Under the pieces are notes generated by a model, which saw only the letters and a program-made list of their open reading frames with translations, did no database searches and was not told the origin of the DNA. Shown one piece after another: positions 3,592 to 28,227 of a stretch of DNA of 32,011 bases. The translations under genes and the position numbers were made by a program. Each line of letters opens with the position of its first letter. Position 1 is the first letter of the stretch. Source of the DNA: Synechococcaceae cyanobacterium SM2_3_2 (lineage in GTDB: Bacteria > Cyanobacteriota > Cyanobacteriia > Thermostichales > Thermostichaceae); assembly GCA_012031565.1 (NCBI GenBank), contig JAAUUM010000019.1, positions 1-32,011 on the forward strand, in the 5' to 3' direction.

Positions 3592-4182
3592 TCACCGTTT
3601 AGCGCGGGACTCGATAGTCAACTCGGGGATCTCATCTAGCTCCATCGCCGTCAGATTATATTGCTCACAAACCAAACTCAGCCGCAGCGCTGCGGTTTCC
3701 ACCGTTTGGACGGCATGGGTCAGATTTCCTTGAAAATAGAGTAGGCGATTGGCCTGGGGCGTGATCTGCCCTACCTGCTTTTTGCCATGACTCAGCATCA
3801 ACTGCCCCCCCACCAAGGGATCCGGCACCTCAACATACAGCACACTGACCCAATCGGGCGGATTGACCGTCTTGCAATAGGAGCGCAAGCTGCGGTCGAT
3901 ATGGGGATCCACACGGGATCCCTGGGTCATCACCAGAGGATTGAGATAAAACGCATTGCAATCTGCCAACAGTAGCCGCTCTAGATAAGTCTCAAAAAAG
4001 GGAAATTGCTCCAAAACCTGAGGGATGCCTGAGCGACGAAACACCACCGAAAAGCCACGGGTGCCGATGAAATCTCGATTGAGATTATTGACGCTCAAAT
4101 AGGGGCAAGCCAAGATCCGACCCCGCAATCTTTTGAGCAGCTTGGGGGGAAAGACATCATCTTGAGATCGAAAGTAGGCCAC
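3592..4182 (-). CDS. 2-oxoglutarate/Fe(II)-dependent oxygenase (prolyl-4-hydroxylase-like fold)
   Basis: This is a 196-aa cytosolic enzyme. The iron triad is visible: H94 and D96 in VDPHIDRSL and H156 in GNLTHAVQTV, with R167 (AALRLSL) in the place that binds the 2-oxoglutarate carboxylate. The segment GGQLMLSHGKKQVGQI and the RLLYF strand before the distal histidine are typical of the jelly-roll core of P4Hc-like 2OG-Fe(II) oxygenases. The substrate cannot be read from the sequence. The gene stands about 90 bases upstream of the rbcR-like gene on the same strand and is preceded by three copies of a 13-base repeat. Confidence 0.8.
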   Translation of the reverse strand: MAYFRSQDDVFPPKLLKRLRGRILACPYLSVNNLNRDFIGTRGFSVVFRRSGIPQVLEQFPFFETYLERLLLADCNAFYLNPLVMTQGSRVDPHIDRSLRSYCKTVNPPDWVSVLYVEVPDPLVGGQLMLSHGKKQVGQITPQANRLLYFQGNLTHAVQTVETAALRLSLVCEQYNLTAMELDEIPELTIESRAKR

Positions 4183-4568: not shown

Positions 4569-7500
4569 GTGATTCCTCTGCGGCTTACCCTGCACGATTT
4601 TCTCAGCTATCGCAGCGTGGATCTTGACTTATCTGGGATCCATACCGCTTGTATTTGTGGGGCCAATGGAGCTGGCAAATCTGCCCTGCTGGAAGCCCTC
4701 AGCTGGGGGATTTGGGGCCAAAGTCGAGCGGCCAATGATCAAGATTTGATTCGCAAGGGATCCACTACGGCGCGGGTGACGGTGGTGTATCGCTCTCAGG
4801 AGCAGATCTATCGGGTGATGCGCACTCGGGCACTGGGGGGAGGCATCAGCCTGGAATGGCAGATCCAAACGGAGCAGCAAGAAACTGGCCAGGGCTGGCG
4901 ATCGTTGACCCGACGGGGGGTCAAGGCCACTCAACTGGGGATCCAACAGCAGTTGCGGCTGGACTACGAAACGTTCATCAATTCCGCCTATCTCCGCCAG
5001 GGCAAGGCGGATGAATTTACCCTCAAGCGGGCGGGTGAGCGCAAGCAGATCTTGGCGGACATTCTGAAGCTGAGCCAGTACGACGACTTGGCGGAACGCT
5101 GCCGAGAGCAGGTCAAGCAGTATCGCACCGCCGCTGACCAGCTCCAGGGCAAGCTCGATCAACTCCAGCACCACCAAACCCACCAAACCCAACTGGAACA
5201 GCAGTACGCCCAGCTCCAACACAGTCGGATTGAAGGGGAGGCCACCCTCGCCACCACTCAAGCAGAACTGGAGCAGATCCGACAGCGGCGACAGGAGCGA
5301 AACAGACTGCAAGAACGCTATCAAGACCTGACACAACAATCGCAAACCATCGGCACCACTCTGCAAAACACTGAAACCCAGTGGCGGCAGCAACGGGATC
5401 GCCTGCATCAGATGGAAAGCCTGTTGAGCCAAAAAGACCAGATTCAATTGGGCTGTCAGCACTATCAACAGCTGCTTCAGCAAGACCAACAGCTCAATCA
5501 AGCCTTTGAACGCTACCAAAGTCTGAGCCAGCAACAGCGCAGCCTCCAGGCCCAACACCTCCAGCAGCAGCAGGATTACCAGACCCAACAGGGATCCCTG
5601 CGGCAAAAACTCCAACTTTTGCAAGCCACGGCCCAGGCTGATCAGGTGCTCTTGCAAGACCGAGAACGGATCCAAGAAGCTCTGCAATCCTTGCACCGTG
5701 CCCGCACCGCCCTCCAGAGCTGGGATCAACGCCAGCACCAGGCCACTCCATTACTGGCAAAAAGGGAACAACTGCGCCAGCAACAACAGCAGCAACACAG
5801 TCAGCTAATCGCCCGTCAGGCCCTACTTACTCAGCAGATCACCCAACTCGAACAGACGGCTGAGGAACAACAGGTGCGCCAAGCGGTAGGGATCCTGGAG
5901 GCCGATCTGGCGGTGCTGCAAGAGCGGTGGGACTATCGAGATCTGGTGATCGAAAAGCTGCAACAGAGACGTCTGTTTGTGGAAAACCTGCAAGAACGGC
6001 AGCGGGTATTGCAGCAGCAATGGCAACAGGTGGATGAGCGCCGCAGACTATTGGAGGGATCCCAGGATCAGGTCTGCCCCTTGTGCCAACAGTCGCTATC
6101 GGGTGGGCTGCATAGCCAAGTCTTGACCCGTCAATCGGAAGAGCAAGAGGAGCTAGAGACCGAGCTGTTTGTGATGCGAGAACAGTTGGCGGTGGCGGAT
6201 CGGGAGCTGGAGCTTTTGGAACGGGAGAAGCAGGCCCTTGATCGCCAATTGCAGGATTTTGACCAGCGGCAACAGCAAAAAGGCAGACTGCAACAACAGC
6301 TGGAGACTCAGCAGCAGGCCCAACAGCAGCTACTGGAGTGGCAGTCCCAGTTGCAGCATATTATTCAGGATCTAGAACACCTAGAGATCAGGGATCCCGA
6401 TCATCCCCTAACTCAGGTGGAGGCCGACCTGGCCAGCATTGGTTACAGCGATAAAGACCATGCCCTCTGTCGCAGCGAGGTGGAGCGGTGGCGGTGGGCC
6501 GAGGGCCGATGGGCAGAGTGGCAGAGAGTCCAGGCCCGCCAACAGGCGAATCAACAGCAGATGCACGCCTTAGAGCAGCAGATCGCCGCACTGGCTCAGG
6601 CTTACCAACAGCAGCAATCTGGAGCTGATGGCATTCTCTCTCGCTTAGCCACCCTCGAAGCAGCCTTAGCCGAGTTGAACTATAACCCCCATCAGCACCA
6701 CCATCTGCGGGGTCAACTCACCGCCGCTCAGGGCTGGATCCAGCGTTGGCACGATCTTCAGCAGGCAGCGCATCAGCATCCCACCCTAGAGGCACAAACC
6801 CAAGCCCTCCTCGCCGCTCTGCAACAGCAACGGCAGCATCTCTCCCAATCCAATCAACAATTGGCAGCGATCCACCAGCAGTTGAGCGGGATCCCGTCAG
6901 TGGCTCCGGTGGAGATGCAGCACAAAGAGCAGCTGTTGGCTCGTCAACGACATGAGTTAGATGGGATTTTGGCCCAGATCGGAGCTGTGCAAGAACGTCG
7001 CCAAACCTTGACCCAGCTCCAGCAGCAACAAGAGTCCTTGAGCCAAGAGATCCAATCCACCCGCCGCCAACTCCAGATCTATCAGGAACTGGCCACCGCC
7101 TATGGCCCCAACGGGATCCCGGCCATGATCATCGAAAACGTTCTGCCGGAGCTGGAGGCAGAGGCCAACCGCATCCTGGGGCGGCTGACTCATCATCAGT
7201 TGCATTTGCACTTCGCCACTCAGCGGGCCGGTCGTCGCACCGACAAGATGATCGATACCCTTGATATCTTGATCGCCGATCCTCGCGGCACGCGCCCTTA
7301 CGAAACCTATTCGGGCGGGGAAGCCTTTCGGATCAATTTTGCCATTCGGTTGGCCTTGTCTCAGCTGTTGGCTCGGCGCTCGGGATCCCGGCTGCAAACC
7401 TTAATGATCGATGAAGGGTTCGGCACCCAAGATCAGGCCGGACGCGACCAGTTGGTCAGCGCCATCAACACCATTGCCGCCGATTTCGCCTGTATTCTGG

Positions 7501-7595
7501 TCATCACCCATATCCCCAGCCTGCAAGACGCCTTTAGCCAGCGGATCGAGGTGGAACGCACCCCCCAGGGATCCCAGATTCATCGGGTGGGGTAG
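4569..7595 (+). CDS. sbcC: SbcC, Rad50-like SMC nuclease subunit
   Basis: This 1008-aa ATPase is the large subunit of the SbcCD (Rad50-Mre11-like) double-strand nuclease acting on DNA ends and hairpins. Walker A is GANGAGKS at about residues 31-38. Two very long glutamine-rich coiled coils flank the zinc hook CPLC (first Cys at residue 503). The ABC signature YSGGEAFRINFAIRLALSQL lies near 914 and Walker B LMIDEGFG near 945, followed by the D-loop and ITHIPSLQ. The length is normal for SbcC. The start is a GTG at 4569, which leaves almost nothing before the first strand (IPLRLTLHDFLSY), as usual. The nuclease partner gene sbcD is not in the window. CAG-rich coiled-coil DNA creates long spurious reverse-strand frames. 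Confidence 0.95.
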   Translation: MIPLRLTLHDFLSYRSVDLDLSGIHTACICGANGAGKSALLEALSWGIWGQSRAANDQDLIRKGSTTARVTVVYRSQEQIYRVMRTRALGGGISLEWQIQTEQQETGQGWRSLTRRGVKATQLGIQQQLRLDYETFINSAYLRQGKADEFTLKRAGERKQILADILKLSQYDDLAERCREQVKQYRTAADQLQGKLDQLQHHQTHQTQLEQQYAQLQHSRIEGEATLATTQAELEQIRQRRQERNRLQERYQDLTQQSQTIGTTLQNTETQWRQQRDRLHQMESLLSQKDQIQLGCQHYQQLLQQDQQLNQAFERYQSLSQQQRSLQAQHLQQQQDYQTQQGSLRQKLQLLQATAQADQVLLQDRERIQEALQSLHRARTALQSWDQRQHQATPLLAKREQLRQQQQQQHSQLIARQALLTQQITQLEQTAEEQQVRQAVGILEADLAVLQERWDYRDLVIEKLQQRRLFVENLQERQRVLQQQWQQVDERRRLLEGSQDQVCPLCQQSLSGGLHSQVLTRQSEEQEELETELFVMREQLAVADRELELLEREKQALDRQLQDFDQRQQQKGRLQQQLETQQQAQQQLLEWQSQLQHIIQDLEHLEIRDPDHPLTQVEADLASIGYSDKDHALCRSEVERWRWAEGRWAEWQRVQARQQANQQQMHALEQQIAALAQAYQQQQSGADGILSRLATLEAALAELNYNPHQHHHLRGQLTAAQGWIQRWHDLQQAAHQHPTLEAQTQALLAALQQQRQHLSQSNQQLAAIHQQLSGIPSVAPVEMQHKEQLLARQRHELDGILAQIGAVQERRQTLTQLQQQQESLSQEIQSTRRQLQIYQELATAYGPNGIPAMIIENVLPELEAEANRILGRLTHHQLHLHFATQRAGRRTDKMIDTLDILIADPRGTRPYETYSGGEAFRINFAIRLALSQLLARRSGSRLQTLMIDEGFGTQDQAGRDQLVSAINTIAADFACILVITHIPSLQDAFSQRIEVERTPQGSQIHRVG

Positions 7596-11321: not shown

Positions 11322-12773
11322 TTATCTCTCGTTGGGACGTTGATTAACCACAATATTTTTGAGATCTCTGGCCACTTCAATGGCAGTTTGATACCGCTGA
11401 AATGTGTCTCGCTCGATCATATGATTAAGCACCGCCGCAAACTCAGGACTGACAGGGATCCCTGTTTCTTGCCACAGCAATAGTCCCGTGTCCATATCCT
11501 CAGAGAGTGCTCTGGGTTCTACCCCTGTCAAGGCTTGAATCGCTACCATGCCAGCGGCAAAGATATCACTATTGGGTCGTGGTCGCCCCGCCAATTGTTC
11601 CAGCGGAGTGAAGCCCAAGCTACCGATACTGACCGTATGATTTTTGCCTTCTGTTAATCCCAGTGATATCTCTTTGACTGCTCCAAAATCGATCAGCACC
11701 AGCTTGCCATTATCCTGACGGCGAATGATATTTTGAGGCTTAATATCTCGATGAATCACCTGCTGTTGATGAATATAATGCATCACTTTGAGCAGATTTA
11801 ACAACATCACCACCACCTTCGATTCAGGTAGGGGCTGCCCCGATAACAGCTCACTCAGGACTTTGCCTTCAATATATTCCTGAACCAAGTAGAATTCGGA
11901 TCCATCTTCAAAATAGGCTAACAATTGGGGGATCTGATCGTGTTTGAGTCGCTCTAGGGTTTCTGCTTCTTTGGTAAACAGACGGCGAGCGATCTCTAAC
12001 AAGGCAGGTTCATCTTCAAACGTCCGCAGTTGTTTGACCACACAGATGGGATGCCCCGGTCGGTGGGTATCAGCTGCCAAATAGGTCTGGCCAAATCCGC
12101 CGGAGGCCAGCAGCCGTTCCACCCGATAGCGGCCCTTGAGCAGATCCTCCTCTTCTCGGTTGATGCCCCCACTATGGCGGCGGTTGGCATCCAAGAGGCC
12201 CAACTGAGTCTGGATCCGAGCCAAGGCGACTGGAAAATCAACCGGCTTGGTGATGTAGTCGTTTGCTCCCAGTTGCAGGGCTTGCACCACATCCTGGCTC
12301 TCTCCTTTGGCGGTTACCATCACCACCGACACCTGAGCAGGGGAGTAGGTTTTGCGGATCTCCGCCAACACTTCAAAGCCATTCAGTCCCGGCATCATCA
12401 CATCCAAGAGCACAAGGTCAAAGGCGTTGCGCTGCATCTGGCTGAGGGCATGATAGCCATCCTCCGCCAGCGTGACTTGATAGCCTTGGCGCAGCAACCG
12501 CCGCGATAACATATCCCGATTTTCGGGGTTGTCATCCACAAGCAGCAACGAAAACGTATCGGGGGCTGAGGCAGCGATGGGAGCCAGTGGCCGACGAGGT
12601 GGATCCAGTTGCGGTCGAGTGGGAATGAGTGAATCGGCGCGGGTCTTGGGGCGGGGGCAGAGTCTAAAGAAGAGGGATCCCATGCGGAGGATGCCCTTGG
12701 AGCAGGATCCACTGGCGCAAGATGGGGGGGGGTAGGCTCTATTGGGGGTGGAAAACTGGTAAAAGGTTCGCAA
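11322..12773 (-). CDS. Receiver-Ser/Thr protein kinase (Hanks type), probably 3' part of a frameshifted REC-REC-kinase gene
   Basis: A response-regulator receiver (about residues 74-195: LLLVDDNPENRDMLSRRL, phosphoacceptor Asp in LVLLDVMMPG, Lys in ITKPVD) is followed by a complete eukaryotic-type kinase: glycine loop LLASGGFGQTYLA, catalytic Lys in CVVKQL, HRDIKPQNI, LIDFGAVKE for the DFG motif, and the P-loop region GSLGFTPLEQ. The first 50 or so residues in this frame look like an out-of-frame reading of the Pro/Ala-rich linker that the upstream gene encodes in the other frame. Joining the two frames near 12648-12657 gives one continuous REC-linker-REC-kinase protein. If there is no fusion, translation must start inside the upstream gene. 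No membrane segment is present. Confidence 0.85.
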   Translation of the reverse strand: MRTFYQFSTPNRAYPPPSCASGSCSKGILRMGSLFFRLCPRPKTRADSLIPTRPQLDPPRRPLAPIAASAPDTFSLLLVDDNPENRDMLSRRLLRQGYQVTLAEDGYHALSQMQRNAFDLVLLDVMMPGLNGFEVLAEIRKTYSPAQVSVVMVTAKGESQDVVQALQLGANDYITKPVDFPVALARIQTQLGLLDANRRHSGGINREEEDLLKGRYRVERLLASGGFGQTYLAADTHRPGHPICVVKQLRTFEDEPALLEIARRLFTKEAETLERLKHDQIPQLLAYFEDGSEFYLVQEYIEGKVLSELLSGQPLPESKVVVMLLNLLKVMHYIHQQQVIHRDIKPQNIIRRQDNGKLVLIDFGAVKEISLGLTEGKNHTVSIGSLGFTPLEQLAGRPRPNSDIFAAGMVAIQALTGVEPRALSEDMDTGLLLWQETGIPVSPEFAAVLNHMIERDTFQRYQTAIEVARDLKNIVVNQRPNER

Positions 12774-13246
12774 GGAGGCTTGTCCGTCAGGACGGCTCGG
12801 GTGGGGGGCGCGTCTTCCTCCTGAATGGGCGAGGTCTCAATTGGCTGGGGTGGGGGGCTGGGATCCTCTGCCGCTGGGCGAGCCTTGAGTAGTAGCTCTT
12901 CAATCTTGGGAATCAACCGCTGGATATCCACTGGTTTGGTGTCGTAATCATCACAGCCCGCCTGCAAAGCCTTCTGCTGATCCCCTGCCATCGCGTGGGC
13001 AGTCAAGGCAATCACCGGGATCCCTCGGGTGTTGGGATCCTGCTTGAGATAACGGGTAGCGGCCCATCCGTCCAGCACAGGTAGGCCCAGATCCATCAGG
13101 ATCAGATCCGGCTTTTCACTCTGGGCCATCTCCACCCCAGCCGCCCCATCAAAGGCCAGAACAATGTCGTAGCCCCGCTTGCTCAGGCGACGACTCAACA
13201 TATCTCGATTCATTTCGTTGTCTTCGACGATCAAGATCTTGGTCAT
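12398..13246 (-). CDS. Response-regulator receiver protein, probably 5' part of a frameshifted REC-REC-kinase gene
   Basis: The start at ATG 13246 (MTKILIVEDNEMNRDML) is preceded by AGGGG at about 6 bases; an in-frame ATG at 13264 is the alternative. Residues 1-125 form a CheY-like receiver: DNEMNRD acidic cluster, phosphoacceptor Asp in LILMDLGLPVLDGW, ALTAHAM, and KPVD. A Pro/Ala-rich linker follows (to about residue 200). Beyond the G-rich spot at 12648-12657 the frame turns into an unlikely Arg/Trp/Cys-rich tail, while the neighbouring frame starts to encode the second receiver. The two receivers share DMLSRRL, so they look like duplicates within one original protein. Going from this frame to the other needs a -1 shift, for example the loss of one base in a G run. 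Confidence 0.8.
   Translation of the reverse strand: MTKILIVEDNEMNRDMLSRRLSKRGYDIVLAFDGAAGVEMAQSEKPDLILMDLGLPVLDGWAATRYLKQDPNTRGIPVIALTAHAMAGDQQKALQAGCDDYDTKPVDIQRLIPKIEELLLKARPAAEDPSPPPQPIETSPIQEEDAPPTRAVLTDKPPCEPFTSFPPPIEPTPPHLAPVDPAPRASSAWDPSSLDSAPAPRPAPIHSFPLDRNWIHLVGHWLPSLPQPPIRFRCCLWMTTPKIGICYRGGCCAKAIKSRWRRMAIMPSARCSATPLTLCSWM
12648..12657 (-). other. Probable frameshift site joining the receiver gene to the receiver-kinase gene
   Basis: The plus strand reads GGGGCGGGGG here, that is CCCCCGCCCC on the coding strand. Upstream of it the sensible protein is in one frame (linker ending DSAPAPRP), downstream in the -1 frame (KTRADSLIPTRPQLDPP). A one-base loss in either homopolymer, or a sequencing error, would explain it. 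It is not a classical slippery heptamer. Confidence 0.55.
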
Positions 13247-13398
13247 GCCCCTGAACCTTTGCATCCCTAGCTGGGTGTGGATCCCTTAAAATTTGATTAA
13301 AAAATTTGAATGACGGCTGGATAACTAATCAAATTGGCCTTCTTCTCAGTACCCTAGATTAATCCCAGATTAATGCCCTTGGCGTCTATTCCACAGGG

Positions 13399-24702: not shown

Positions 24703-25467
24703 ATGATCTCGATCAACAACAACACGCTGCAAGATGCCCTCGGTCGCCGCCAAGCTCTCAAGGTGATCAGTGGCCTTCAAAACTTTGATCTGGACTCCGT
24801 TAGTCGGATTGTGCGGTCAGCTGAGCGGGGCGGAGCCACCTATGTCGATATTGCGGCCCATCCTGACTTGGTTAAGGCAGTGCGTAGCCAGAGCGATCTG
24901 CCCATCTGTGTCTCAGCCGTGGATCCCGAGCAATTGGCCCTCGCTGTCCAGGCGGGAGCTGATTTGGTGGAAATCGGCAATTTTGACAGTTTTTACCAGG
25001 CTGGTCGGGTTTTCACCGCCGCTGAGGTGCTCGACCTAGCTCGCAAAACTCGGGCAATGCTGCCTCGCACCCTGCTGTCCGTGACGGTTCCCCATACCCT
25101 CACCCTCGATCAGCAAGCTGAACTGGCCGAAAGCCTGGAAACCATCGGAACCGACCTGATCCAGACCGAGGGGGGCACCAGTGCCCAGCCCCAGCACGGT
25201 GGATCCCTGGGCTTGGTGGAAAAAGCCGCCCCCACCCTGGCCGCTGCCTATGAGATCAGCCGCGCTGTGAGTATTCCAGTCTTGTGCGCCTCTGGCCTCT
25301 CTACCGTGACTGTGGCGATGGCTATTGCGGCTGGAGCCTCTGGTGTGGGGGTGGGTCGTGCCGTTAGTCAGCTCCAGGACGAAGTGGCGATGGTGGCTCA
25401 GGTGCGGGCTTTGGTGGAAGCTCTCAATAAGGCCGTGATCCCCGTGGCCTACTCTGCCCGGTCTTGA
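24703..25467 (+). CDS. ycf23: Ycf23 / DUF561 family protein
   Basis: This 254-aa soluble protein has a TIM-barrel-like pattern. Family landmarks are LKVISGLQNFDLDSV, GGATYVDIAAHPDLV, PICVSAVDPEQL, LVEIGNFDSFY, TEGGTSAQPQHGG and ASGLSTVTVAMAIAAGASGVG. Ycf23 is conserved in cyanobacteria and some red-lineage plastids; its reaction is not known to me. The length is normal. The ATG at 24703 starts right before the conserved region. An intrinsic terminator follows 49 bases after the stop. Confidence 0.88.
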   Translation: MISINNNTLQDALGRRQALKVISGLQNFDLDSVSRIVRSAERGGATYVDIAAHPDLVKAVRSQSDLPICVSAVDPEQLALAVQAGADLVEIGNFDSFYQAGRVFTAAEVLDLARKTRAMLPRTLLSVTVPHTLTLDQQAELAESLETIGTDLIQTEGGTSAQPQHGGSLGLVEKAAPTLAAAYEISRAVSIPVLCASGLSTVTVAMAIAAGASGVGVGRAVSQLQDEVAMVAQVRALVEALNKAVIPVAYSARS

Positions 25468-25515
25468 GGCTTATCAAGCTTGACCTTGTTGATCTGAAAG
25501 TTAATTGAGTAACTC

Positions 25516-25550
25516 AAGGGATCCTCTGTTTTATCCGGGATCCCTTTTTT
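25516..25550 (+). terminator. Intrinsic terminator after ycf23 built from two GGATCC elements
   Basis: The 9-bp stem AAGGGATCC (25516-25524) pairs perfectly with GGATCCCTT (25538-25546) across a 13-base loop and is followed by T's to 25550. Both arms contain the genome's overrepresented palindrome. Confidence 0.8.
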
Positions 25551-25950
25551 AGTGAATGATGAACCAGCGCCTCAGCAAATGAGACAGCCAGAGAGAAATC
25601 CCATCAGACCAGAGACGGTAACGATGGCCTTTGGCTGCTAATTAGCCTCTTGTTCACATTTTCAGGAAAAATTACTGAGCCAATGTGTTCGGCTTAACCG
25701 CGCATTAACCCTTGGGGACTTTATACTACTTTCATCTTCGGCAATTGATTCACATATCCTTAATGATCTTGTGACGTTTCAAACGTGGGGCGTTGTCAAG
25801 GGTGTGGTGTGATCCATTGCAGAGCCAGTTAACTCACCACCCTCCTAGACACAACGCAAAGCCTCATCGATGAGCTGATGGCTGGCGCTTCATCTTGGCC
25901 GGGATGGTTTCCCAGTCTTTTTGTCCCAATCATCTACTCACGAGGCTTTG
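25551..25950. other. Upstream region of the secreted nuclease
   Basis: No gene is evident in the 400 bases between the ycf23 terminator and the nuclease start. The segment contains the Pho-box-like repeats and -10 described separately. The stretch from 25735 to 25950 would then be an untranslated leader of about 215 bases; I see no riboswitch-like fold or short coding frame in it that I can support. Confidence 0.5.
25693..25727 (+). promoter_or_regulatory. Pho-box-like direct repeats with -10 box
   Basis: CTTAACCG (25693-25700) and ATTAACCC (25704-25711) are 8-base repeats separated by 3 bases, an 11-base period that matches the cyanobacterial Pho box (repeats of YTTAACCW with 3-base spacers, bound by SphR/PhoB). 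TATACT at 25722-25727 follows 10 bases after the second repeat and fits a -10, so the repeats would replace the -35. A third repeat is not clear on either side. Confidence 0.65.
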
Positions 25951-28227
25951 ATGAACATCAGTCTGAACTATTGGTCTGCCCGTTTGCTGGGGATCTCGCT
26001 GCTGGTTCCCGCCCTGTACTCCTGCGGCGGTGGCAACACTCCTACAGCGCTTGCGCCCGAGGAGACGGAGATCGCCTCTGCAACCGTCACTTTGACGGAG
26101 TCTCCCACCGCCTTGCCCAGCGACCTGGAGAGTCCAGTCTCTCTGGTGGCTATCCCCAACCAGGGATCCCCCTCCACCCTTGATATTGCCACCTGGAATA
26201 TTGAGTGGTTTGGCTCCACCAGCAATGGCCCCACCAATGAGTCTCTCCAAGTTCAGAATGTCAGCGACGTGATTTCTGGTGCCAATCTGGACATCTGGGG
26301 TTTGCAAGAGATAGTTAGCGCCAGCCAGTTTCAACAGATGGTGGCGGGGCTGCCGGGATACAGCGGTGTTTTGGCTAGTGACAGTACCGTGTCCAGTGGC
26401 TCTCAGTACTACAGCGCCTCTGAGCAAAAAGTCGCCCTCATTTACAACACCTCCCTACTCTCTCTGCGAAGTGCCCGTGTCATTTTGGGCAACAATGACT
26501 CTGCCTTTGCCGGTCGTCCGCCGGTGGAGTTCACCCTGCGGGTCCAGAGCACTGGCGAGGATATCATCGTCATCGTCCTGCACGCCAAGTGCTGCACCGA
26601 CACCACCTCCTACTCCCGTCGCCAAGCTGCTGCCAATGCCCTGAAGTCCTTTCTGGACAGCACCTATCCCACCCGCAGAGTGTGGGTGATCGGCGACTTC
26701 AATGACGATGTGGATACCTCCATCAGCCCCGGTAACAACTCTTCTTACCAGAGCTTTATCAATGATCCAGCCAACTATACCTTCCCCACCCGAGCCTTAT
26801 CTATAGCTGGCATTGCCTCCACCGTAGGATTCCCTGACACTATCGATCACCACCTGATCACCAACGAGGCCAACGCCACGTATGTGTCAGGCTCGGCGCA
26901 GCGACTGCCTGTGGATCAGTTCATCCCCAACTACGGCACCACCACCAGCGATCACTATCCCATCCTGGCCCGCTACAACCTCGGCGGAATCACTGGTGGC
27001 CCCAGCCCTACACCAGCCCCTACTCCAGCCCCCACCGCCACCCCCCAACCGGGAGGATCCATCCAGGTTTTTCTCAACGAGATCCTGGCTAATGAACCCG
27101 GCAGCAACACCGCTGCCGAGGGGGTGGAATTGATTAATGTGGGCAGCACCATCGCCAACCTGAGTGGATGGACAATCTCGGATGCCTCCAGTCTGCGCTA
27201 TACCTTTCCATCAGGCACCAGTGTGCAGCCCGGTGGGGTGATCGGTGTCACCCGCAATTTTGGCCTATCCAATAGTGGGGATACCGTCATTCTGCGGGAT
27301 AGCAGTGGCACTGTGCGAGATCAGTTCCAATATCCCTCCAGCTTGGCCAACTCCGATGGCGTCTCCATGAACCGCAATCCTGACGGATCTACGACGGGCA
27401 TTTTTGTGAAGCACAACACCCTCAGCTCTCAAAGTCAGTCCATCGGCCAACGGCTGACCAACCCTACTCCTGCCCCTACTCCTGCCCCTACGGCCACTCC
27501 CACGGCCATTCCTCCGGCCAGCTCTACCATTGGCGGATCACAAACTCTAACGGGATCCCTGAGCACTACTGATGCCAGCAACCCCACCCGCTCGGGCCGC
27601 TACAAAGATGACTACATCCTGACAGGAGTGTCCACAGGCAGAACGGTGACGGTGTCCATGACCAGCTCTTTGGATACTTACCTACAACTAGTCAATGCCA
27701 GCACGGGCCAAGTGATCGCTGAGAACGATGACAGTTCGGCAGTGGGGGGTACCAACTCGCAGGTGGTTTTCACGGTTCAATCTGGGATCACCTATTTGAT
27801 CCGGGCCACCAGCTACTCGTCGGGGGCCACTGGCAGCTATACCCTGTCTACCTCCACCTCTGCGGCTAGCCCCACCCCGGCACCTACGCCCGCTGGCCTT
27901 ACCCTGTCTGTGCCCCAGACCCGGACAGGCACCCTCTCCAGCAGCGACGGCAACAACCCCACCCGCAGTGGATCCTTTGCCGAGGACTATCGGCTGACTG
28001 GGTTGACGGTGGGACGCAGCGTCCGGCTGAACCTGAGCAGTAGCTTTGATACTTATCTACAGCTCATCAACGCCTCCACTGGGGCTGTCATCACTTTCAA
28101 CGATGACTTTGGCACCACCACCAACTCTCAGATTACTTTCACCCCGCAGTCGGGCATTAGCTACATCGCGCGGGTGACCAGCTACAACAGCAATACCACC
28201 GGCAGCTACACCCTTTCAGCCCAGTAA
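25951..28227 (+). CDS. Secreted lipoprotein nuclease: EEP domain, lamin-tail domain and two PPC domains
   Basis: The ATG at 25951 follows GAGG at about 5 bases and gives 758 aa with a lipoprotein signal (SLLVPALYSCGG, Cys 25). An endonuclease/exonuclease/phosphatase domain follows: IATWNIEW near 80, DIWGLQEI, GDFNDD near 248 and TSDHYPIL near 334, with a Cys pair in AKCCTD. Then comes a lamin-tail domain (about 370-500: FLNEILAN, GVELINVG, LSGWTISD) and two pre-peptidase C-terminal type domains (about 530-635 and 653-758, each with SFDTYLQLINASTG-like cores). Pro/Thr linkers (PTPAPTPAP) separate the modules. It probably degrades extracellular DNA for phosphate, similar to the NucH type, which agrees with a Pho box upstream. 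Earlier in-frame TTG starts lack a signal-like beginning. Confidence 0.88.
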   Translation: MNISLNYWSARLLGISLLVPALYSCGGGNTPTALAPEETEIASATVTLTESPTALPSDLESPVSLVAIPNQGSPSTLDIATWNIEWFGSTSNGPTNESLQVQNVSDVISGANLDIWGLQEIVSASQFQQMVAGLPGYSGVLASDSTVSSGSQYYSASEQKVALIYNTSLLSLRSARVILGNNDSAFAGRPPVEFTLRVQSTGEDIIVIVLHAKCCTDTTSYSRRQAAANALKSFLDSTYPTRRVWVIGDFNDDVDTSISPGNNSSYQSFINDPANYTFPTRALSIAGIASTVGFPDTIDHHLITNEANATYVSGSAQRLPVDQFIPNYGTTTSDHYPILARYNLGGITGGPSPTPAPTPAPTATPQPGGSIQVFLNEILANEPGSNTAAEGVELINVGSTIANLSGWTISDASSLRYTFPSGTSVQPGGVIGVTRNFGLSNSGDTVILRDSSGTVRDQFQYPSSLANSDGVSMNRNPDGSTTGIFVKHNTLSSQSQSIGQRLTNPTPAPTPAPTATPTAIPPASSTIGGSQTLTGSLSTTDASNPTRSGRYKDDYILTGVSTGRTVTVSMTSSLDTYLQLVNASTGQVIAENDDSSAVGGTNSQVVFTVQSGITYLIRATSYSSGATGSYTLSTSTSAASPTPAPTPAGLTLSVPQTRTGTLSSSDGNNPTRSGSFAEDYRLTGLTVGRSVRLNLSSSFDTYLQLINASTGAVITFNDDFGTTTNSQITFTPQSGISYIARVTSYNSNTTGSYTLSAQ

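Follow-up and report, generated by a model that had tools for sequence, protein, structure and literature searches.

The window, by which we mean the whole analyzed stretch of 32,011 nucleotides (contig C116 of a 3.93 Mb host genome), carries an ORF for a secreted or lipoprotein EEP nuclease of 758 amino acids (25951..28227, + strand, ATG start). Its upstream neighbor, a gene for a DUF561 protein (24703..25467, +), is probably a separate unit; a spacer of 483 nt lies between this gene and the nuclease ORF, and a GGGATCC inverted repeat with a T-run was noticed by eye at ~25517–25551, after the DUF561 gene. Within the spacer, two direct repeats resemble the cyanobacterial Pho box, described as tandem 8-mers YTTAAYYW with 3-base linkers (PMC13226834, PMC12260270). 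Here and below, the literature enters through excerpts of PMC1906773, PMC13226834, PMC9846622, PMC12260270, PMC8289736, and PMC6085458. Box 1, CTTAACCG (25693..25700, +), matches seven of the eight positions, with G in place of W, and box 2, ATTAACCC (25704..25711, +), matches six of eight, with A in place of Y and C in place of W. The linker between them is CGC, 3 bases long, and the repeat period is exactly 11. The original prediction had described two YTTAACC-type repeats, and this stands for the period but not for the first letter of the second repeat, which is A rather than Y; A at the first position is also present in published Pho boxes (PMC1906773). The third-box position, AATGTGTT (25682..25689, +), is a poor match that takes the three-box score down to 10.4 bits and is probably not a box.

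Exactly 10 nt past box 2, across the spacer TTGGGGACTT, lies the −10 element TATACT (25722..25727, +), confirming the distance of 10 bases beyond the repeats that had been proposed. No consensus −35 stands at normal spacing for TATACT, the Pho boxes filling that place, and a search of 25450–26000 for a consensus sigma-70 promoter (−35/−10 pair) returned none. With a putative transcript start at 25734, the 5′ leader would be ~217 nt long (25734..25950, +). The box pair lies at −258 from the ATG at 25951, which is preceded by a ribosome-site-like stretch, ACGAGG. Folding of the leader gave nothing unusual (z −0.93), and a riboswitch or structured leader was rejected on this value and the lack of an Rfam match in the window.

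The protein begins with a hydrophobic stretch and then CGGG (aa 1–28, reading ...LYSCGGG), a lipoprotein-like signal from which the nuclease is predicted to be lipid-anchored; a tyrosine at position −2 of a lipoprotein signal is unusual. The EEP domain (aa 80–335) matches PF03372 at 47 bits (cut-off 24.5) and is followed by a lamin-tail domain (LTD, aa 372–462) and by two PPC-like repeats (~aa 530–757), whose PPC score of 20.6 bits is below the Pfam cut-off of 25.9. A model of the EEP domain, built from 21 aligned sequences in an alignment that held 20 of the 80 relative loci, reached a mean pLDDT of 91.6, and the first five rows of a Foldseek search with this model were DNase I (closest E 9e-17). 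The exported EEP nuclease of the original prediction is thus borne out by a domain score over the cut-off, a DNase I fold, and a signal with a hydrophobic stretch. Eight residues (N19, E56, H147, D185, N187, D235, D270, and H271 in aligned-domain numbering) were invariant in the 21 aligned sequences and form what we take to be the usual EEP catalytic set.

The assignment to a nuclease family fared differently. In the NucH/ExeM test (NF033681) the protein failed, with 27.1 bits against a cut-off of 300 and a match confined to aa 99–251, while the NucH of a related genome (G001) scored 593 bits as a positive control; ‘NucH-like’, in the original prediction, is therefore not supported as a family name. 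It likewise failed the test for the membrane nuclease MnuA (NF045851; 35.7 bits against a cut-off of 185). In VIA-align 2, DNase I (Z 26.1, rmsd 2.7, 236 aligned) was tied with TDP2 (25.6) and two Bacteroides EEP proteins (25.8 and 25.5), and therefore the substrate is not fixed by the fold alone; mannosyl-6-phosphatase reached 25.3 and sphingomyelinase was lower at 23.9, and the fold search ruled out no other EEP family. These near-equal Z scores and the two failed cut-offs speak for an enzyme that, under the same Pho promoter, acts mainly on another phosphodiester or phosphoester, such as phospholipid or sugar phosphate, like other EEP proteins. However, the five leading Foldseek rows argue against it, as does the LTD, which the extracellular nuclease ExeM also possesses (PMC6085458, excerpt) and which a legend in PMC8289736 lists among proteins related to extracellular nucleases. 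We consider DNA the likely substrate, and a mainly different substrate a minority possibility that still deserves weight. That alternative is about the product and does not conflict with the promoter part of the explanation preferred below.

Regarding the promoter, published excerpts place the PhoB boxes of E. coli with their end 10 bp before the −10 element (PMC1906773), and in Synechocystis boxes over or before the −35 position activate, whereas boxes near −10 repress (PMC12260270). Ending 10 nt before TATACT, the window boxes have the geometry of activated SphR promoters, and the site fits activation because the boxes replace the −35 element and the region holds no consensus −35/−10 pair. 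Their distance to the ATG falls inside the range of −91 to −310 from the start codon given for nucH boxes (PMC1906773). The site has two good boxes and a poor third, and published accounts differ: one has Synechocystis sites requiring three or more boxes (PMC1906773), and another reports promoters with two to four motifs in this organism (PMC12260270).

The repeat pair might instead be a chance match or a relic, with some other promoter in the 480-nt spacer driving the nuclease independently of phosphate. We scored box pairs with a matrix made from 27 of the 30 promoter rows in a published table of cyanobacterial Pho boxes (Table 1 of PMC1906773), leaving out the three PCC 7942 rows, which duplicate those of PCC 6301; the matrix is not wholly independent of the family studied here because it includes two rows from JA-3-3Ab and JA-2-3B′a. 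The window pair (25693–25711) scores 14.5 bits, and between 0.002 (window composition) and 0.012 (local intergenic composition) such scores would be expected on one strand of the 483-nt spacer, which argues against chance. So do the −10 element at its canonical distance (the chance of a TANNNT that agrees with TATAAT in five or more of its six positions at a spacing of 9–11 nt is ~1%), the missing consensus sigma-70 promoter in 25450–26000, and the presence of a pair at a homologous gene in another genus (G002). Chance or decay is favored by there being two boxes only, and by two other genes in the window, both without known phosphorus role, to which this matrix gives higher scores (18.3 and 15.6 bits).

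The spacing of the repeats carries a further signal, whose strength depends on the scale considered. TTAACCN5TTAACC occurs exactly once in the window, and with up to two mismatches three times against 0.82 expected, a count reached by 8 of 100 shuffles. Window pairs of at least 14 bits number three at offset 11, three at 12, one at 15, and none at 8–10, 13, or 14, so that within the window alone 11 is not distinct from 12. In nine genomes drawn from the family and order, however, exact TTAACC pairs at period 11 number 35, whereas 13 other periods average 4.5, with 11 as the highest count at any of them and 13 for the control pattern read backwards. The window's genome alone holds four exact period-11 pairs against a mean of 1.8 at the 13 other periods (P 0.10, or 0.036 after collapsing repeat arrays, a step chosen post hoc). 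The enrichment is therefore strong family-wide, arguing against chance, and modest in the single genome, where the small excess leaves some room for it. On balance, we regard a chance or relic pair as improbable.

The host is presumably a separate genus within the hot-spring Synechococcus family (Thermostichaceae), and the 59 genomes searched included none of its genus; its own genome was covered by pattern searches, family searches, and 18 chosen stretches. Of the 35 exact period-11 pairs in the nine genomes, 12 are followed on the same strand, within 500 nt, by a pstS match. In the window's genome, pairs with at most one mismatch occur at 22 sites, six of which, the window site included, precede phosphorus-acquisition genes or this nuclease. 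An exact pair precedes pstS of the pst operon on contig C198, and this pstS site (G000:C198:24279-24295(-)) is identical to the 17-base core in the window at 16 of 17 bases. A five-box array, counted as two of the 22 sites, precedes a second pstS on contig C227, and three boxes each precede phoX (contig C14) and phnC-phnE (contig C208). The other 16 sites are inside genes, before genes without known phosphorus role, among them a clpC-like gene (named by eye) and a chemoreceptor-like one, or facing no gene; among the four exact pairs, one lies ~350 nt before a chemoreceptor-like gene and one points at no convincing gene. The −10 spacing at the genome's other sites is ~8–12 nt with weak −10 elements (by eye), and the 10 nt of the window site is not repeated.

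Scores at known phosphate genes vary widely. With the pair matrix, the host's own phoX site reaches only 9.7 bits and its C198 pstS site 12.6 bits; the phoX genes of relatives have pairs of 18.8 (G005), 18.3 (G001), 14.7 (G006), and 12.6 bits (G004), and that of G002 is without a pair (6.7 bits). Loci were scored for 30 of the 37 pstS matches, and 14 of these 30 reach 14 bits in the family; one of the 30, L204, was scored in the wrong orientation, although an exact pair sits 108 nt before it. The pstS promoters of the same genome and of the family share box core and period with the window site, but many in the family outscore it, and many hold three to five boxes against its two. A negative set of nine exonuclease III-like EEP genes (L149–L157) gave a best score of 9.7. 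As separate observations, a glycerophosphodiester-phosphodiesterase-like ORF (1490–2182, L225; named by eye from its first residues) shares contig C198 with the pst operon, and in G002 an exact TTAACCN5TTAACC pair (G002:C109:22810, L113) lies 135 nt before a 200-aa lipoprotein-like ORF without a Pfam match.

A regulator for such sites can be proposed. Excerpts of PMC1906773 list sphS and sphR in JA-3-3Ab and JA-2-3B′a (Aprime, Bprime). The best PhoB-type response regulator of the window's genome, G000:C5:9559, scores 247 bits, below the equivalog cut-off of 296, and from sequence we infer that it is SphR. RpaB is a different gene, at 396 bits above its own cut-off, and an NblR-like gene is a third, separate regulator. 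RpaB sites are TTACA-type repeats with a 10-base period. That RpaB or an unnamed OmpR-type regulator binds the repeats, the nuclease then answering light, redox, or general stress, draws on the presence of RpaB and on 53 PhoB-profile matches in the genome, many of them receiver domains only, but it is very improbable given a core of TTAACC at period 11, unlike RpaB sites, and the same period-11 spacing before pstS, phoX, and phnC.

Our best reading, and one in which we have considerable confidence, is that 25693–25727 represents a phosphate-regulon promoter, controlled by SphR, for an exported enzyme with a DNase I fold. We favor it because of the period-11 enrichment, the boxes at pstS, phoX, and phnC, the pstS core shared at 16 of 17 bases, and the PhoB/SphR-type regulator; the Pho-box promoter originally predicted is upheld by the repeat before both pstS genes, phoX, and phnC, by the 11-base enrichment, and by the −35 placement. 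Phosphorylated SphR, the cyanobacterial PhoB, would bind the two direct repeats in place of a −35 element and bring RNA polymerase to TATACT, which lies 10 nt farther on. The lipoprotein nuclease would be made and exported under phosphate scarcity, and outside the cell it would cut extracellular nucleic acid. Phosphatases such as PhoX, whose gene has the same repeats upstream, could then release phosphate for the Pst transporter.

DNA scavenging under phosphate limitation is plausible. Excerpts of PMC1906773 describe extracellular nucleases driven by Pho boxes, encoded by the phoA-nucH operon of Synechocystis PCC 6803 and by nucH in Synechococcus PCC 6301/7942 and JA-2-3B′a. As in the window, an exported EEP nuclease is there preceded by TTAACC-type 8-mers with linkers of 3 bases; in PCC 6301/7942 the boxes are likewise far from the start codon (−276/−310 against −258 here). 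In contrast to these systems, the window has two boxes rather than three or four, and its enzyme, whose EEP domain is followed by an LTD and PPC repeats, is not NucH (27 bits against 300). The ExeM/NucH family (NF033681; ExeM of Shewanella, PMC6085458, excerpt) shares secretion, the EEP domain, and the LTD with the window protein, but ExeM has 871 aa and an N-terminal LTD, whereas the order here is EEP-LTD-PPC and the score lies far below the family cut-off. Our literature search, within its non-exhaustive coverage, found no description of this nuclease. The arrangement appears well precedented and the enzyme not the usual one.

Among 24 EEP matches, of which L161, L162, L164, and L168 came with hardly any upstream DNA or none, three genes reached 13 bits: that of the window, the G001 gene, and G002:C100. 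The G001 gene, with a 13.1-bit box pair, is a true NucH, the nuclease with the published Pho box (PMC1906773). G002:C100 encodes a lipoprotein EEP nuclease in a sister genus, with a 16.1-bit pair at −136. In a Smith-Waterman comparison it scored 151 against the window protein (shuffled 47, sd 6.6, 100 shuffles), and we do not claim orthology because much of this similarity is the lipoprotein signal (~aa 12–40); pairwise BLASTP between the window protein and the other nucleases gave no useful information. On contig C43 the window's genome encodes its own NucH-like protein (162 bits, below cut-off); no comparable box stands in the 595 nt upstream of that gene (L167, 7.4 bits). Behind this gene for a NucH-like lipoprotein nuclease (L223) come genes for a lipoprotein and for a calcineurin-like phosphoesterase, possibly a phosphoester-degrading cluster without a Pho box.

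Relatives of the nuclease domain are mostly from Bacteroidota, Rhodothermales among them (~25–43%). Closer matches to the EEP-LTD part lie on a Streptosporangium plasmid (NZ_CP109431.1; 54% within aa 55–501) and in a Polyangiaceae contig (L065; 63% in the best segment, frameshifted and at the contig end). These unrelated hosts share with the window protein the EEP domain and, in Streptosporangium and Polyangiaceae, also the LTD, but none was matched in the PPC tail. The EEP-LTD part has its relatives outside cyanobacteria, while the PPC tail resembles cyanobacterial proteins, a distribution that suggests a chimeric, horizontally acquired gene put under the resident phosphate regulon; horizontal transfer is read here from distribution only. 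A tentative extension, which strikes us as somewhat more doubtful than probable, is that a horizontally spread lipoprotein nuclease of DNase I type took over the phosphate-starvation role of NucH in this lineage, and that the same takeover, independent or ancestral, occurred in the sister genus.

If these readings are correct, a deep cyanobacterial lineage gains a further member of its phosphate regulon, and the role of a secreted nuclease under SphR would outlive any particular nuclease, the box being kept and the enzyme family swapped. DNA and other phosphodiesters would then supply cyanobacteria of this family with phosphorus. The general picture, already set by the phoA-nucH work, is unchanged.

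Elsewhere in the window, the top pair score (18.3 bits) belongs to ATTAATCTgggATTAATCT at 13374–13356 (−), ~110 nt upstream of a response-regulator gene (12398–13264) that is flanked by genes for a hybrid histidine kinase and a receiver-Ser/Thr kinase; the sequence could be a second SphR-type site or the repeat of another regulator. Three GTCTTAA(A)CT repeats, ~17 nt apart (4236–4190, −; 15.6 bits) and not a plain 11-base array, lie directly upstream of a 2OG-Fe(II) oxygenase gene (3592–4182). Finally, the product of 4569–7595 (+) is a Rad50/SbcC-like ATPase that partially matches LmuB in PADLOC (88 bits).
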